Source of the DNA: a virus
Direction: 5' to 3' (one strand)
Virus record (IMG/VR): IMGVR_UViG_3300044655_002995
Coordinates: 1-23,353 of that record
Length of the DNA: 23,353 nt
The notes under the pieces were generated by a model. It saw nothing but the letters and a program-made list of their open reading frames with translations. It did not search any database and had not been told where the DNA came from. This document shows, one piece after another, positions 10-22,707 of the stretch (position 1 is the first letter of the stretch; each line of letters starts with the position of its first letter). The position numbers and the translations under genes are program-made.

Positions 10-264
10 TTATGATTTAATTATTTTAACTTTTAATTCATTAGTGCCTTTTATTAAACGATGCCATTGTCCACATTCAATAAAAATAACTGAATTTAAT
101 TCCTTAGGCAATTCATTTTCTAATTGTATCTTCCAATCAGTTTTTTCAATAGCGACGATCATTCTATCTTCATTATCTCTATGCCATTTAAGTTCAATCG
201 GATCAATATATTCGTTAAAGGTTCTGATTACAAAATCATCTGTTTCAATATCTAAATATATCAT
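10..264 (-). CDS. Small cupin-like protein (84 aa)
   Basis: This short protein has the layout of a one-domain cupin, a small beta barrel that often binds a metal. The first half holds LKWHRDNEDR (residues 25-34) with His28, followed by alternating strands and a QLENELP turn (48-53). The second half holds GQWHRLIKG (65-73) with His68, followed by a closing strand. The pair of histidines in the two half-motifs is what suggests a cupin, and I recall similar WHR/HRLIKG small proteins in other phage genomes. The start ATG overlaps the TGA stop of the upstream gene (ATGA), so translation is probably coupled. It is the third gene of a cassette that starts at 1381. The substrate and role are unknown. 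The stop is TAA at 10-12, and the remaining bases to the window edge are non-coding as far as can be seen. Confidence 0.72.
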   Translation of the reverse strand: MIYLDIETDDFVIRTFNEYIDPIELKWHRDNEDRMIVAIEKTDWKIQLENELPKELNSVIFIECGQWHRLIKGTNELKVKIIKS

Positions 265-806
265 TTTTTAGCTTTTAATTTTTTGACAACTGATTTTATT
301 TCTGGATCCTGGTTAAGTATTAATTTTTTAGCAACTTCTACTGCTTCTTTAGCTGCAGATATTCCCATCTTTTTATTTTCATAATTGAATATCACATTAT
401 ACTCGCCTTTTTTACCAGTGCCTCGAGTTCTGCCAAATCCAGTATCGTCTCCAGCAAGAGTTTGTAGTTCCAATGCAATATGTTCTATTATGTGACCTAA
501 CCAAGTTCCTCCTTTTACTCTTGAAAAGAATCCTCCTTTTCTTCCTACTGAACATCGATGTGCATTCATTGAAGGAAGATATTTTTTGATATTTTCATAG
601 AACTTAGGAATATTTGCTGATGAAAATTCTTCCCATCCACCTAAATCAAACACCATATGTACAAGCTTGTCCTTTGGGTAGTCCCATTTATTTTTACCCT
701 CAATTGTTTTAATTGATACTATCGTTAATTCGCTAATACTCGGCAAATCTTTGTTAGTCTCATGTTGAGTAGCTTCAAATACTCTATATGTCATTAAATA
801 TTTCAT
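261..806 (-). CDS. Stand-alone cyanophycin synthetase N-terminal domain homologue (181 aa), possible HxxEH metal hydrolase
   Basis: Residues 50-165 closely match the N-terminal domain of cyanophycin synthetase (CphA) as I recall it: FDLGGWEE (53-60), a helix ending in LPS, HRCS (83-86), GGFFSRV, GTWLGHIIEHIALELQ (100-115), GFGRTRGTG (123-131) and YNVIF (136-140). The protein ends at residue 181 in a Lys-rich tail, so the ATP-grasp and Mur-ligase-like catalytic domains are absent and it cannot make cyanophycin alone. In CphA this domain binds the growing polymer, and in some enzymes it was reported to hold a zinc-dependent site that cuts cyanophycin to make primers. Here His105, Glu108 and His109 form HxxEH, and Cys85 could be a further ligand. 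I chose the ATG at 806 because it forms TAATG with the stop of the upstream gene; an in-frame ATG at 839 would overlap that gene by 34 bases. The fold assignment is strong. The activity and the substrate in a phage are inference. Confidence 0.82.
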   Translation of the reverse strand: MKYLMTYRVFEATQHETNKDLPSISELTIVSIKTIEGKNKWDYPKDKLVHMVFDLGGWEEFSSANIPKFYENIKKYLPSMNAHRCSVGRKGGFFSRVKGGTWLGHIIEHIALELQTLAGDDTGFGRTRGTGKKGEYNVIFNYENKKMGISAAKEAVEVAKKLILNQDPEIKSVVKKLKAKK

Positions 807-1381
807 TACCAAAATCCAGGATAAGTTTTTCCGCCCCAAAGATGAGCATATCGATTTATTCTACATGCCCAATAACCAGCAGTAGTTCGATCTTTTTTCT
901 CAGCACAGTTATGTCTAGCAGCAAATGATTTTCTAGCTTTAGGATCACTTACTTTTGCAGTTAATCCACCATGTACATCTCCAAAAGCAATCTTCATTAC
1001 TCTTCCAGTTTTAGGATTCTTTACATACACATGATACTTCTTCTTTTTTCCTCCACGCCGAGGATAGTTTAATTTAACATCAGCCTCTTCAAATATCTCT
1101 AACTCTTCTAATGGAAGATCAAGTGGAACTACTTCTCCATTGAAATAATCAGTTAATCCAAGATCAGTTGATTCAAATAATTGCTTGTCTAATCTCCCTA
1201 ATTCTAAATACCCATCATAAAATCTATCTCGAGCTTCGCATAATAATATAATGTGAGCATTTGAACCAGGTCTAAATACTGATTCGGCAATACTATTATT
1301 ATTATCTATATGATATTTAAGATTTTCAGAAATCTCTCCATCACCTATAAATTGACTAAAACTTGTTATTCGTGTTTTCAT
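806..1381 (-). CDS. Virion-type protein with C-terminal RKSFxARHxC...YWxCR motif (191 aa)
   Basis: The N-terminus (MKTRITSFSQFI) is a short amphipathic segment of a kind common in T4-like phage structural and core proteins. The middle (residues about 60-105) is acidic. A basic stretch with GGKKKKYHVYVKNP follows, and the C-terminal third carries GDVHGG, DPKARKSFAARHNC, TTAGYWACR and a final GGKTYPGFW. I recall the RKSF-ARH-C / YW-C combination at the C-terminus of head-core and other structural proteins of marine and T4-like phages. The two cysteines and nearby histidines could bind a metal, but this is not proven. The gene opens a three-gene cassette with the cyanophycin-synthetase-type protein and the cupin, and has an AATAAATAA motif immediately upstream that overlaps the stop of the preceding gene. 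The exact function is unknown; a head-core or packaging-related role is one possibility. Confidence 0.68.
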   Translation of the reverse strand: MKTRITSFSQFIGDGEISENLKYHIDNNNSIAESVFRPGSNAHIILLCEARDRFYDGYLELGRLDKQLFESTDLGLTDYFNGEVVPLDLPLEELEIFEEADVKLNYPRRGGKKKKYHVYVKNPKTGRVMKIAFGDVHGGLTAKVSDPKARKSFAARHNCAEKKDRTTAGYWACRINRYAHLWGGKTYPGFW

Positions 1382-2180: not shown

Positions 2181-4325
2181 TTATCTGTTTTTAGCGATAT
2201 ATGGTAAATTAATTTGAGGTCTACAATTATCAATTAAGACTAACATTGATTCGTCCTTTAAGAACTGTTGACTTAGGATAAAATCATGTTCCTCTTCTCT
2301 TAGCATAGTATTAAAGATTCGAAGATTAGTAATTAATAATTTAGAACTAGGTAATCTATAATTTTGAGTAAGGTCAAATGAATCTTGTGTAAATGATGAA
2401 GATGTAGCCAAGACTCTAATAAAATTAGTATGATTTATAATATCACTAGGATCATCTTTTATCTGATATACGTATGCTCCACATTGCTTAAATTCATTTG
2501 ATGCTGAAATTATAATAGCGTGCCATACTCCACTAATAAAATTATTAATAATATAGTTTTTAACTTGTGAATTTATCTTTACTGTAATAGTTAAGTCTCC
2601 CTCAGGCGCAGTTGAATTATATCGATTGAATATAGCAGATATCCTAATTCCAGCTTGGGTATCATCTTCATATCCATCAATAAAACTAATTGATTCAGAA
2701 GTACTTGGCACATTAAATAGGCATGTAAATGATAGATTCCTATTAGTAGTATCATTAAACTTAGGAAGAGCAGTATAGATAATTGCAGATTCTCGTAATT
2801 TAAAACTTGCCGTATCAACCGCTCCTGAAGTATCAATTAAGATATCTCTTTGATCAGTTAATGCAATATTTCGATATGCTTCAATTCTAATATATCGACC
2901 CGATCCACTGGTACCAATATGATTTTCGATTGTATCAAATGGCCCTCTTACTTTACAATACATAGTAGATAAGCCGCTAGTATTCTTATCATGAGTAACA
3001 AATCCACCATTTTTCCAAGTAGTAAATAAGTCACTGCCTTGATATGCAAGGATAACTTTATTAATTGGTGCAGGAGTTTTATCTAAACTTGGTAAACTTA
3101 CGACTTCTTGACTTGTTGCAAGTAGAGGTACATCAGTTGTTATATTAGTAACAGTATCGACTACTGAAATATTACTAAGATCATAATAGTTTTCTATTAA
3201 AGGAGCAAAGTTAAATGTATATTTCAAAGGTCGTTGAGTTATATCAGGATGAATCTCTTTTCTAGAAGAATCAAAGGTTGTACTTATTTTACTATATTGT
3301 GATGGCATAGTAGCATCCTTAATATCATCTAGTACTTCTTCACTAAAAAGTTGATCTGCACTTAGGATAACGTTATCTAGGAAACTTCGAGTTTCGTCCA
3401 ATAATAACATATCGATATTTGGATTGTATTTTTTAAGTTGAATCTTCCAAAAGACCGGTGCCATCATAAATCCTCTATGTAAGAAAGATCCCTGTATTTC
3501 AAACATTCTATTCAATAGTGGAAAATATAGGAAATCTCTTTTTCTAGGTTCAGAGCTTGTTCCAAATATTGATTGAAAATATTTATGATCAATTTCAACT
3601 TCGAAAGGTAATTGAAAATCCATCCCAAATTCAGAGTATTTTGGTGCATTACTTGGAAAAATATTATTATTCACCATTACTTTAATACACTTACGATCTA
3701 CATTTTTATAGACAGTCCACTCTTTAAATACATAGTCTCCACTATTTGAATCAGGAAGAGTCCTAAAATAGATAACTTGGTGTCCATATAATTGATTAGT
3801 AAAGAAAGATATTTCCTGATACATGCCAATTGCACTATCCACCGCATATGGCCTAAAGCTAGGATCTCTATTTTGAATAATTGAAGTACACTGTTCATCA
3901 CTACATATTAACTTAGGAGAATAAGTATTTGCAACTGGAGCAGATTGTCTAAATCTCAATTTAACTTCATTAATTTCAATTGGAGTAGATAATTCGCTAT
4001 TTGTTCCATCATCATATTCATACTTAACTTCAAAATAGAAATCAGTACAGTCTTCTAGGAAAATATGTGCAGCATCCCCTAAATTTCCAGGAGCGACGAC
4101 ATACCATAGTGACCAGTCTAATCTATTTCTAGAATATCTAAATTGTCGAGTAAGCTTAGTTAAATCCAGAGTATTTGGCATTTCGATAACTAGATCTTCA
4201 ACAAAATCAGTAAATTCTAGAATATCACATATTGGATCGACTGTTGAAAATATCCTAAAATTTTGATTAAATGTCAGGGAATTATTCTGAGGATCGATTA
4301 ATAATTTTACAGTTGTATTAGCCAT
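2181..4325 (-). CDS. Large virion protein with C-terminal LamG/concanavalin-like domain (714 aa)
   Basis: The N-terminal part (residues 1-130) is beta-rich and its function is not recognised. A central segment (residues 233-300) has DFQLPFEVEIDHKYF, RKRDFLYFP and PVFWKIQLKKYNPN, which looks like a conserved virion domain. The C-terminal 180 residues resemble a LamG-like jelly roll: LSFTCLFNVP (531-540), GVWHAIIISA (599-608) and the typical closing strand LLITNLRIFNTMLREEE (663-679). Such domains usually bind glycans or stabilise fibres. The start ATG at 4325 has an AATAAATAA element 21 bases upstream and no Shine-Dalgarno sequence. The gene is followed after 4 bases by the gp15-like gene, so a neck, tail or adsorption role is likely. 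I cannot assign a specific T4 counterpart. Confidence 0.7.
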   Translation of the reverse strand: MANTTVKLLIDPQNNSLTFNQNFRIFSTVDPICDILEFTDFVEDLVIEMPNTLDLTKLTRQFRYSRNRLDWSLWYVVAPGNLGDAAHIFLEDCTDFYFEVKYEYDDGTNSELSTPIEINEVKLRFRQSAPVANTYSPKLICSDEQCTSIIQNRDPSFRPYAVDSAIGMYQEISFFTNQLYGHQVIYFRTLPDSNSGDYVFKEWTVYKNVDRKCIKVMVNNNIFPSNAPKYSEFGMDFQLPFEVEIDHKYFQSIFGTSSEPRKRDFLYFPLLNRMFEIQGSFLHRGFMMAPVFWKIQLKKYNPNIDMLLLDETRSFLDNVILSADQLFSEEVLDDIKDATMPSQYSKISTTFDSSRKEIHPDITQRPLKYTFNFAPLIENYYDLSNISVVDTVTNITTDVPLLATSQEVVSLPSLDKTPAPINKVILAYQGSDLFTTWKNGGFVTHDKNTSGLSTMYCKVRGPFDTIENHIGTSGSGRYIRIEAYRNIALTDQRDILIDTSGAVDTASFKLRESAIIYTALPKFNDTTNRNLSFTCLFNVPSTSESISFIDGYEDDTQAGIRISAIFNRYNSTAPEGDLTITVKINSQVKNYIINNFISGVWHAIIISASNEFKQCGAYVYQIKDDPSDIINHTNFIRVLATSSSFTQDSFDLTQNYRLPSSKLLITNLRIFNTMLREEEHDFILSQQFLKDESMLVLIDNCRPQINLPYIAKNR

Positions 4326-4413: not shown

Positions 4414-5220
4414 ATGGTCTTGAGAAATAAACAAATACTGGATCCGTTTTGGATAACTAAAGGATCTTACATAGATTCAGAATATTTTAATTATATTTTA
4501 CTTGATGCAAGTCAAAAATATAAGATTGACTTAGAGGAAGGTATGCTCGACCATTTTTATGAGATATTTTTCCATAGTTTAAATTTAAATAACTTAGCAG
4601 TTGATGGAAGTATATTTGATTTTAAAATGCATCCTATTTTTAGGAATGATAGAATAAAGGAAATTAGCAGAGAGCTTAAACAGATTTATTCTAGAAAAGC
4701 AGATGTTGTTGAAATATTTAGAAATGCAAATTATGTATTCTTAAATCTTATCTTAGATTATATGGATCTTCAGTTGGATATACTAGATAATATTAATTTC
4801 TTTTACCTAAATGAGATGATTCATGAGCAACCTGAGATTTTTCTAGTTATTAATCATGCTGGAAATAAGAAGTATTCTATCTGGAAAATAAAAGATGACC
4901 CTCGTAAAAATTTCGGATATTCATTCAAGCGAATAAAATCGGTTACTATTAACGAAGTTAAAGAGAATGCTCTTAGAATAGAATTAGATAAACTAGACGA
5001 TCCTGAATTAGAGAATATGAAAGAATATAAGAATGTATGCTTCGCTGTCTTAGAGGGTCCTCCTGAAAAAATGGTAGCGAATGTTATTAAAGATATTATT
5101 CTATTGAATAAAGGTATAGCAAAAGGCATTGAATTTGAATCAAATATAATTAGTGAGCTTTATGGGCTCATTTCATCTGAAAGATTAATGCCTTTTACCT
5201 TAAATCAATGGATGGACTAA
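4414..5220 (+). CDS. Hypothetical protein of unknown function (268 aa), only plus-strand gene in the window
   Basis: I do not recognise this protein. It is soluble, with no signal peptide or membrane segment. It appears mostly helical in residues 1-140, including IKEISRELKQIYSRKADVVEIF and a hydrophobic region around ANYVFLNLILDYMDLQLDIL. A more mixed alpha/beta half follows, with VCFAVLEGPPEKMVANVIKDIIL near residues 209-231. The start at 4414 follows an AATAAATAA element by 11 bases and has no Shine-Dalgarno sequence. An out-of-frame ATG lies 4 bases upstream. The gene converges with the collagen fibre gene, leaving only 8 bases between their stops, and diverges from the LamG gene. This position could suit a fibre assembly factor or an accessory gene, but nothing in the sequence shows it. 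The matching promoter element suggests late expression. Confidence 0.78.
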   Translation: MVLRNKQILDPFWITKGSYIDSEYFNYILLDASQKYKIDLEEGMLDHFYEIFFHSLNLNNLAVDGSIFDFKMHPIFRNDRIKEISRELKQIYSRKADVVEIFRNANYVFLNLILDYMDLQLDILDNINFFYLNEMIHEQPEIFLVINHAGNKKYSIWKIKDDPRKNFGYSFKRIKSVTINEVKENALRIELDKLDDPELENMKEYKNVCFAVLEGPPEKMVANVIKDIILLNKGIAKGIEFESNIISELYGLISSERLMPFTLNQWMD

Positions 5221-12562: not shown

Positions 12563-15500
12563 TTAGAATGTAGTTACTCTTCCTGTACTTTGAACAAGCG
12601 GTGCATCAAGTGTAGTCTCCTTAATATATTGCGCACTTACTTGTAAATCAAAAGAAAAAGGTGAATCATCCTTTAAGATAATGTCAATTCCAAGTTTCTT
12701 AGAATATTTTATATTAGTAAGAGTCCCGTCGGTTTTATATCCACCGATATATCCAAGTTTATCTGATGCTCTAAATTGAAATAATACTGGAATATTCACT
12801 GCATTTTCAGAACCAACTTTAATTGATTTACTTGATCTTGCTGGGAAATTTCCTTGAACTGAAACAGATTCATAATTAGTAGGATACATATATAAATATG
12901 ATCCACATGTATATTTTCCTATTAAATATTCATCGTTTTTAACAAAACCTAATTTTGTAGGATAATGAGAATCATTTCTAGAGGTATCGTCAGTAGGTAG
13001 AGCCGGCGTGATTCTACTTGCCTGTTTATAATAAGCGACTCCGAATATATTAGTTGAATCAGATACACTGGTTTCAAAATTTAATGCTTGCGAAAATGGT
13101 AAATATTGTTGATTAGCAGTAGATGAAATAGATCCGCCTGCTGCAAACTCAGGTCTAAATACTCTAGCAATATTTGTTACTGAAAAAGAAGCATTGCATA
13201 ATGTAGGCAACTCAGGATGATCTTTACTTATACAGAATTCAGTAAGGTAACCTCCACCGTTTGCAACAGAAGCAGCAGTAGTTGTACCGTTCCATACCCT
13301 AGGATCAACTGAAGTGGACGGTGCAGCAAAGTTAGGAACATATGGTAGGTAGTGACTACCATTAATTGGTGTATTTTTACTAGAAATAACTCGACCATCA
13401 TATGCATATATAGTATTCAAATATGTAGGATCCAAATATGTAGTAGCTGGATCAGATGGTTCATAAAGTTCTTCAGCAAGACCATAATCTCTTACTCTAG
13501 AATGTATAAACTGGCTCTTAACTTGCCCAGATTGTTTACTCGCAATATGCTTAAAGTTATTAATGGTCGGGGTCGGATTAGAATTAACTCCAATTGGAAC
13601 AATATCATATCTTCTATTTCTATGATAGTCTGATCCTGGAATAAATGGAAGACTATCATCAACTAATTCGTCAATTCCTCCAAATAATAATGAAACTAAT
13701 TCTAAATTAGTAGCAGAGGTATTTTGAATAGAAATAGCATATTGTTTTGTAATAACTGATCCTTCTTTATATACGACAGTTCCACCAGTAGTATCTTTAA
13801 TTAAGTCTTTATAATATCCAGCAAATAGGTTAATTGTATCACCGTTTGCAACATCTAATGAATTACCATCTGAATCAATAATACTTACTTTAATAACTCC
13901 TTTATCTAATTGAATAGATTGTTGAATACTATCAAGAGTTGTCTGTAGAGTTTTTAATTTTTGGTATAAATCAACTACGTTTCCTTCAGGTGTAAAAAAT
14001 CCACTTGAAATATCTTCAGCTACATGTGAATAAAATTTATTGCCTGATGTAAATTGACTACTTAAGTGACTGTCTAATCCTTTTGAATTTAAACTAGTTT
14101 CAAAGTCAAGTTTTGCTTTTTCAGCAAATGTTTTTTGTGAAGTAATAACAGATTCTTCTTGAGCTTGAATGCTTTCTGGAAAATTTACTTGAACAGGTAA
14201 TGACCAGTCTGATTCAGCCGGGTTTGATGGCCACCCAGCCTCAGATAAAGATTTTACTTGAATTTCAACTATTTCACCTTTACGAATAGAAATATTTAAT
14301 TGATTTGTATTTACAATATCTGAATCAGTTAGGGTTTCTTCTGCCCATTCATATAATCCAGTTGTATCGTTTAATACTTTTAATCTAGGTTTAGTTGTTA
14401 CTTCAGTCCATTGAGAAAAGGAAGCCTGTCTAACAGATCCGTCAACTTCAGTAAATGACTGCTGCTGAGTATTTTGTTGAGTTCCAGTTAAACTTAAATA
14501 TCTATATCGGTATTTAAATTGAACGACATTCTGAGGTCCATATTTACTTACTTTAGGGCTAGGTATATGCCAAAATCCTCGAACTTCATATTTCCTAGCA
14601 GTTATAAACTGAGGAGTTGTAGAAAGTTGAGTAGTAATATTTGTAACAATCGAAGAAAGCGAAGAAGTTTTTTCAGTTCTATTAGTTAAAGATTCTTTTA
14701 ATTGTTTTTGTAAACGTGCAGTCTCTTTAGGAGTTTTAGATACAGTTGTAATATTCGATTTAATTGAATCAATCTTTTTATTAAGTTCCTCTATTTCCTG
14801 TTGAATAGCTGCTTTTTCTTTAACATTATTATTAAGCTCAGTAACATTTGCAGAATCTTGAATATGTTGATCTACTTGAACTACATTAAAACTTTTTGCA
14901 TCCAATACTGGTGAATCTGGAGAAATTCCTAAAATTGCAGGTTGAGTTTTTTCTTTTGCTAAATTTAATAGGATTACTCCAAAATCAGATACAAAATTAT
15001 TATAGTATTCTGCAAGAGTAACTGTTGAGTCATCTTGTAATGGAATAGTTAAATCATTTGTATATACCGCAACACCTTTTGAAAAATCGTTAACTGTTAG
15101 ATTTTTAGATCTACTTACAGGCTTAATAAATATTATTTCATGTTCATTAAAACCTACATTTATTTGTAATTCAGGTCGACGATATGGTACAGGTTTAAGT
15201 TTAAGAATATTAGCGCCTATTGTAATTGGATCAGTTCCAAAAATTCTTTCAAGTATAACTTCAGTATCAGTTGAATTTATTGAAATTACTTTATATTCAC
15301 TGTCATTTACAGTAATTAAAACATCGCCTACTGCTAAAGTCTTAGTGTTTTGTACCCCTGATAAAGTATCAGTATAAACTAAACTATTTAATTTATATCT
15401 TCTACGTACAATAGAAACAGTTGAGCCACTAGTTAATGTCTGATTACCTTCTTCTTCTAATATTTTAATAACATCAAATGATCCTTTATATCTATTAATA

Positions 15501-22308: not shown

Positions 22309-22707
22309 TTATATGCTATACACTGAATTTTCTCCGCTGGTACTAATAGAAATAAATTCTAGAGTATCGTCAGGATCTAATCCGGTCTTTTTATGAATCT
22401 TTTTCCATTCCTTAGCATATCCATTTTTACAAATTTGAGTAAAATAGGCAAATGCATTTGGGATAGCCATTTTAGTTTCATCGAAACTTTTCCAATACTT
22501 TAAACAGTCTAAGATAGCTGACTGTATACAATCTTCTCTATCTCTATAATCTTTAAAGTAGAGACGGTCAACTGCTCTATTCGCAAGAGAAATAAAACAA
22601 TTTACAGTATAATTAGAAAGCTCTCCAGCTTTCTTGCATTCTATAATGTCTGCAGTAAATTCTTTATTGTTAATATAGTGAGTGTCTCCTTTTTTCTTTC
22701 TAGCCAT
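22309..22707 (-). CDS. Late-transcription sigma factor, T4 gp55-like (132 aa)
   Basis: This is a small sigma factor of the T4 gp55 family, which directs host RNA polymerase to late promoters. Residues 10-18 (HYINNKEFT) match the YVNNKEL start of gp55. Residues 54-106, with YRDREDCIQSAILDCLKYWKSFDETKMAIPNAFAYFTQICKNGYAKEWKKIHKK, correspond to the region 2 core in gp55 ([46 protein letters not shown]). The protein is shorter than the 185-residue T4 protein. The C-terminus has DDTLEFIS (114-121), which resembles the SLDFL clamp-binding end of gp55 but is followed by 11 more residues. It starts 9 bases after the RuvC-like gene, without an AATAAATAA element, as expected if it is made before late transcription. 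Confidence 0.88.
   Translation of the reverse strand: MARKKKGDTHYINNKEFTADIIECKKAGELSNYTVNCFISLANRAVDRLYFKDYRDREDCIQSAILDCLKYWKSFDETKMAIPNAFAYFTQICKNGYAKEWKKIHKKTGLDPDDTLEFISISTSGENSVYSI

Follow-up and report, generated by a model that had tools for sequence, protein, structure and literature searches.

The window analysed here is a stretch of 23,353 nucleotides from a viral record of IMG/VR, and it carries at positions 261..806, on the minus strand, a gene with an ATG start whose 181-residue product is related to the N-terminal domain of the cyanophycin synthetase CphA1. These coordinates and this length agree with a preliminary description of the same DNA, which left the strand unstated; a plus-strand reading of 261-806 was rejected, as the frame is full of stops. 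The ATG start is backed by relatives, and a TTG start upstream is possible. The gene overlaps by one base (TAATG) with the upstream flanking gene (806..1381, minus strand), which encodes 191 residues with a phrog_7595-type C-terminal domain, and by four bases (ATGA) with the downstream flanking gene (10..264, minus strand), whose 84-residue product looks by eye like a small cupin-like protein and has no family match. Such overlaps are expected of a translationally coupled cassette.

A late run of minus-strand genes, of which this gene is the penultimate member, contains tail-fibre-like genes, a neck protein gene (gp14-like, head closure Hc2; 2181..4325, minus strand; phrog_679, E=2.6e-7; PF11649, E=7.9e-5) and a late sigma factor-like gene of the gp55 type (22309..22707, minus strand; phrog_234, E=1.3e-20). 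The neck protein gene places the cassette in the late structural region. The only long plus-strand gene of the window (4414-5220, 268 residues) has no family match, and a similar protein is encoded at 13823-14440 of another contig (G009). PADLOC returned no defence-system match.

A CphA1 N domain with an intact metallopeptidase-type site

Read from its N terminus, the product consists of a putative capsid-targeting leader, MKYLMTYRVFE (residues 1-11; 774..806, minus strand), which ends in V-x-E with a predicted cleavage after Glu11, a variable linker (residues 12-27; 726..773, minus strand), and a complete CphA1 N domain of inverzincin-like fold that begins at residue 28, is recognized by PF18921 and Foldseek in residues 28-164 (315..725, minus strand) and is taken to reach residue 179. 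The Pfam profile of the cyanophycin synthase N-terminal domain (PF18921) matches residues 51-163 with E=4.5e-41 and a score of 139.9 bits (family cut-off 27), and phmmer matches the protein to CphA1 of Synechocystis UTEX2470 (SuCphA1) and of Trichodesmium (TeCphA1) with E values of about 1e-32 to 5e-33. The blocks HRCS, GTWLGHIIEHIALELQ and GFGRTRGTG, by which the domain had been recognized in the preliminary description, are all present. Residues 29-179 match the NCBIfam model TIGR02068 over positions 2-150 of 862, with 167 bits where the model demands 850; the protein therefore lacks the ATP-grasp and Mur-ligase parts, as had been proposed, and the neighbouring open reading frames are phage genes. 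The window protein is a CphA1 N domain with nothing else of CphA1. A weak, zinc-finger-like match in PHROGs (E=0.076) was disregarded.

The AlphaFold2 model, computed from an alignment of 30 natural relatives, reaches a pLDDT of 90.7 and replaced a first model built from 5 sequences (pLDDT 79.5). Its fold is that of the CphA1 N domain: Foldseek superposes it on TeCphA1 (7wae_A) with a TMq of 0.83 and an rmsd of 1.0 Å, and on the E82Q form of SuCphA1 (7txv_A) with an rmsd of 1.1 Å. Residues 6-18, which cover the last part of a short N-terminal helix and a linker, fall below a pLDDT of 50. Structure matches without significance (E about 0.4-1) repeatedly include LuxS, an enzyme whose zinc site likewise combines HxxEH with a Cys ligand.

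In SuCphA1, the N domain holds a metallopeptidase-like site with the motif Cx19HxxEH, in which C59, H79 and H83 bind the ion and E82 is the base, and which cuts cyanophycin into primers (PMC9262961, Sharon et al. 2022). The window protein has exactly this spacing, its C85, H105, E108 and H109 aligning without gaps with C59, H79, E82 and H83 of the Synechocystis enzyme. Thus HIIEH (H105-x-x-E108-H109; 480..494, minus strand) would supply two metal ligands and the general base, and H83-R84-C85 (552..560, minus strand), aligned with H57 and C59 of SuCphA1, a second-shell His and the third ligand. The numbering first given for His105, Glu108 and His109 was therefore exact, and Cys85, named in the same place as a possible fourth member, corresponds to C59, the third residue by which CphA1 binds its metal (PMC9262961). 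These residues are anything but scattered among homologues. In an alignment of 12 distinct phage proteins and 26 Bacteroidota CphA1s (SuCphA1 numbering), the site residues C59, H79, E82 and H83, the supporting H57, F67, R70 and E87, and likewise S60, G97, R100, T101 and Y110 are invariant in both sets; E90 is replaced by Thr in all 12 phage proteins and by Thr or Ser in Bacteroidota. The window protein thus almost certainly keeps a complete N domain with an intact zinc-peptidase-type site, and by homology it may bind a metal (zinc in CphA1) and act as an endo-cyanophycinase. The CphA1 N domain also holds the growing chain by its alpha-a helix (PMC9262961), and on this ground the protein could be a non-catalytic binder, either retaining chains of cyanophycin or inhibiting host CphA1 by pairing with it; the invariance of the full catalytic set, including the general base E108, makes such a role highly improbable.

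The HxxEH motif is also that of the M16 inverzincins (pitrilysin, insulin-degrading enzyme), of which the CphA1 N domain has been proposed to be a distant relation (PMC9262961). Unlike in M16, the third ligand of the window protein is an upstream Cys instead of a downstream acidic residue or His, the protein has a single domain of about 150 residues, and no M16 family match was obtained for it in Pfam. From CphA1 itself (7txv, 7wae), with which it shares the fold, the Cx19HxxEH site and the substrate-contact residues, it differs in being free-standing, in its extra N-terminal leader, in three phage-only Lys positions (see below) and in its location within a late structural region.

Phage relatives, cellular kin and the insertion site

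Scans of viral contigs, in line with the search for other stand-alone copies suggested at the outset, revealed homologues on 21 IMG/VR contigs and in three forms. Clade A, comprising the window and 13 contigs of up to 436 kb, has the leader followed by the domain; in clade B (4 contigs) the domain is followed by LKESIRRILREE and this in turn by a further, variable protein; and clade C (4 contigs) has the domain and a tail ending SYQEFVEAHKKFTNK. An apparent upstream extension of homology in clade C was dropped, as it reads past a stop codon and into the last part of the gene before it. The phage proteins form a single clade with support of 100/100, which is not nested within any particular Bacteroidota branch of the tree. 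Pairwise dN/dS among the phage homologues is about 0.08-0.29, with values of 0.08-0.16 in five of seven pairs, and the gene is under purifying selection. Its occurrence on 21 other contigs and its conservation with low dN/dS indicate that it is neither a chance reading frame nor debris.

In the BFVD database, the domain is found in A0A6J5PU94 of an uncultured Caudovirales phage (57% identity, rmsd 0.7 Å), annotated as “Cyanophycin synthase-like N-terminal domain-containing protein”; this protein differs from that of the window in its length of 245 residues, typical of clade C, and is named by its domain only, and no study of it was found in the present analysis. A tblastn search of 50,697 records of annotated phage genomes gave no match to the window protein, and consequently no cultured member was found. 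A cyanobacterial N domain used as query on the viral contigs retrieved no relative; no cyanophage version was thus seen.

The nearest cellular proteins found, with search patterns that favour phage-like blocks, are full-length CphA1s of Bacteroidota (45-51% identity); identity to cyanobacterial CphA1 is 41%. The N domain occurs in 35 of 297 Bacteroidota genomes (about 12%), 36 of its 37 matches lying in frames of at least 700 residues, and no free-standing copy was found in these genomes. One short frame (contig C51 of genome G186) was rejected as such a copy, being a CphA1 split by an IS66-type insertion. This Bacteroidota cyanophycin locus (L206:7910-14469), in which cphA is interrupted right after the N domain, also contains an adjoining cyanophycinase gene and an IaaA-like (asparaginase-like) gene. 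On plasmids, almost all matches to the N domain fall in annotated cphA genes. The free-standing form therefore looks viral within the samples searched.

The neighbourhood indicates that the gene is an accessory one. The cultured Flavobacterium phage immuto encodes homologues of both flanking genes (immuto26A_172 and immuto26A_173; 46% and 43% identity), which directly adjoin each other in the same order as in the window, yet with no CphA1 N-domain gene between them. The gene occupies this site in the clade A loci L012-L016, and locus L020 has an extra gene between it and the downstream neighbour; in G002 and G006, two of the leader-bearing genomes described below, it lies elsewhere, among other genes with leaders. 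In immuto, immuto26A_171 (L211:7531-7968) is annotated as an NAD synthetase, a name that looks doubtful for a product of only 145 residues.

A leader shared with unrelated genes

The best clue to the use of the enzyme is its leader, which the preliminary description did not mention. Complete N termini of clade A follow the pattern M[KR][YH][LI]xxY[KRS][LVI]FE and diverge fully afterwards: residues 1-11 are conserved among the clade A homologues having that end, and residues 12-22 are not. The upstream flanking gene also begins with a leader-like stretch, MKTRITSFSQFIGDGE, with SFTQFIGE and SFSRYLGE in its relatives. In related huge phages, a leader of the same kind stands at the start of otherwise unrelated genes about four times as often as expected from shuffled sequences: on 40 of 507 genes versus 11.0 (sd 3.0) in the 436-kb G002 (IMGVR_UViG_3300042261_002385; leader loci L028-L047, L057 and L058), at 25 of 286 gene starts versus 5.9 (sd 2.3) in G006, and at 9 of 161 versus 1.7 (sd 1.3) in G001. 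Stretches of 50 kb from phiKZ and from a Lak phage contained no such start. Under a stricter definition of the leader, the residue after Glu is Ser in 21 of 42 cases. The roughly 40 otherwise unrelated genes in G002 carry a leader resembling MK[YH]LKxFKLFE, with Ser after the putative cut.

A short N-terminal leader with a hydrophobic or aromatic residue at positions 4 and 7, followed by x-x-E, is likewise found in the T4 proteins IPI-IPIII and Alt; the start of ipIII, taken as a control, reads MKTYQEFIAE. The protease gp21 cuts after L/I-x-E, and the first ten residues are enough for targeting, with residues 4 and 7 the most important among them (PMC9026906); Ser after the cut is also known for the SPN3US protease (PMC10052503). 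We infer that the shared leaders are capsid-targeting sequences, and it is likely, judging from these signatures, that the window protein is packaged and injected. The cargo is unrelated to that of T4. The cleavage-type motif, L-x-E or I-x-E in the relatives, is V-x-E in the window, which counts against this assignment.

Among the leader-bearing phages, G002 has a gene for a capsid protein of the Gp23 type (E=4.2e-28) close to a portal-like gene and to an S77-like protease gene, whose product is fused to a repetitive scaffold-like stretch and matches PF03420 with E=1.5e-5, below the curated cut-off. An S77-like capsid protease was not found in the 136-kb G001, and that of the window phage was not seen because the window is a 23-kb fragment; the sub-threshold match in G002 and the null result in G001 both weigh against the reading preferred below. 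Clades B and C lack an N-terminal leader. In the clade B phages, many small genes around the CphA1 N-domain gene begin with a leader of a second type, MNLQENIRRILREE (L065-L072, G007, G008), and an element of the same type follows the N domain in the fused proteins, where it could serve to split the domain from its cargo instead of directing packaging. The tail of clade C contributes a single C-terminal leader-like match. Some proteins of G007 and G008 carry the second type internally, as if leader-cargo units had been fused.

Two other uses of the leader were weighed. On the one hand, the protein might act in the cytoplasm during infection, with the leader as some other tag (membrane, phage compartment or chaperone). 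Packaging is here read from sequence, and the leader is missing from the N termini of two clades, both of which favour this possibility; it is nonetheless unlikely, given that the shared leader has a Glu cleavage-site pattern with Ser resembling known prohead protease sites (PMC9026906, PMC10052503), and that one leader-bearing phage has a T4-type head module. On the other hand, the protein might be an accessory peptidase acting inside the prohead during head maturation, never to be injected. The leader type, the late structural neighbourhood and the clade B fusions, which place the domain beside a putative processing site, would suit this role; its absence from immuto, however, shows that the gene is not generally needed for assembly, and G002 already has an S77-like protease, so that a maturation role appears quite improbable. 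The leader favours entry with the virion.

Host, substrate and proposed role

The proteins of these phages are closest to those of phages of Flavobacterium, Tenacibaculum, Chryseobacterium and Prevotella and of huge metagenomic phages, and the host of the window phage is probably a member of the Bacteroidota, an assignment drawn from relatives. In a published survey, every CphA1-bearing Bacteroidota genome also had a cyanophycinase (PMC10206079). Among the 297 Bacteroidota genomes sampled here, the 35 with the N domain have full CphA1, once together with cphB and an IaaA-like gene. Nine phage records, which include fragments, contained neither a cyanophycinase gene (PF03575) nor one of the IaaA type (PF01112), and the host would thus have to complete any degradation of the polymer.

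The preliminary description had seen no obvious reason for a phage to make cyanophycin and had suggested that the module may be a peptidase or isopeptidase working on another substrate. The enzyme stands, but the premise is weakened and the alternative substrate has become doubtful, and the account was incomplete without the leader. The kinship with Bacteroidota CphA1, the Bacteroidota hosts of the nearest cultured phages and the retained contacts make a cyanophycin-like substrate at least as likely as another. We consider it somewhat favoured, given the retention of the binding residues and the occurrence of CphA1 in lineages that are candidate hosts. Packaged and injected, the enzyme could instead cleave an isopeptide bond or a protein, be it of the host or of the phage. 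This would accord with the lack of any other cyanophycin gene in the phages, with the lack of CphA1 in most sampled Bacteroidota, and with phage-only switches near the substrate-binding N-terminal strand, namely P12 to K38, (I/Y)14 to K/R40 and R19 to K45 (one Arg); other leader proteins also include peptidase-like ones of the M28-like and HExxH kinds, although the HExxH motif is not significantly enriched among them (p=0.16). The contacts to cyanophycin known from SuCphA1 and common to Bacteroidota CphA1 are, however, unchanged in every phage protein, although some would probably have drifted had the enzyme turned to a new substrate, so that we consider such a target less likely than cyanophycin.

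The reading preferred here is that a large phage took the N domain from a CphA1, probably that of a host, and kept it as a free enzyme. Cys85, His105 and His109 would bind the metal and Glu108 would act as general base for endo-cuts in a polymer with an Asp backbone. In clade A, including the window, the T4-like sequence of residues 1-11 would bring the protein into the prohead, where the prohead protease would cut after Glu11; the enzyme would then leave the virion with the DNA and act in the newly infected cell. Endo-cuts in host cyanophycin could provide new chain ends for the host cyanophycinase, releasing Arg and Asp, or synthesis of the polymer could be undone. The retained site and contacts favour the endo-cyanophycinase. 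For the whole chain, a packaged and injected endo-cyanophycinase-type inverzincin derived from CphA1, we estimate a probability of about 0.42, the near certainty of domain and site being lowered by the likelihood given above to packaging with injection and, further, by that given to the substrate. Beyond the points already raised, this reading must accommodate the missing cyanophycinase and IaaA-type genes, the presence of CphA1 in only about 12% of the sampled Bacteroidota, and the M-domain contacts to the polymer in CphA1 (S603 and E607; PMC9262961), whose equivalents are missing from the free domain, as it has no M domain.

The domain family is already known, and the free-standing, leader-tagged phage form is a new variant of it. 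If the proposed reading is correct, the hydrolytic site found in 2022 inside a biosynthetic enzyme also occurs naturally as an independent enzyme, which would offer a small model in which the site could be tested apart from the synthetase, and, as far as the searches show, no viral gene directed at cyanophycin would have been described before this one. The shared N-terminal leader would also provide a simple sequence rule for recognizing the proteins that huge uncultured phages inject, a payload that to our knowledge is not known by other means. That huge phages of Bacteroidota load dozens of leader-tagged proteins into the head and inject them, among them the primer-making peptidase site of a biosynthetic enzyme set free as an inverzincin to cleave a polymer or protein of the host at an early stage of infection, is a tentative proposal to which we give slightly less than even odds. 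In G002, leader-like starts were observed on a glutamate-racemase-like gene (399598-400371, minus strand), on a gene for an M28-like peptidase (264402-265934, minus strand) and on two genes for HExxH proteins (371673-372386 and 374410-374994, both plus strand).
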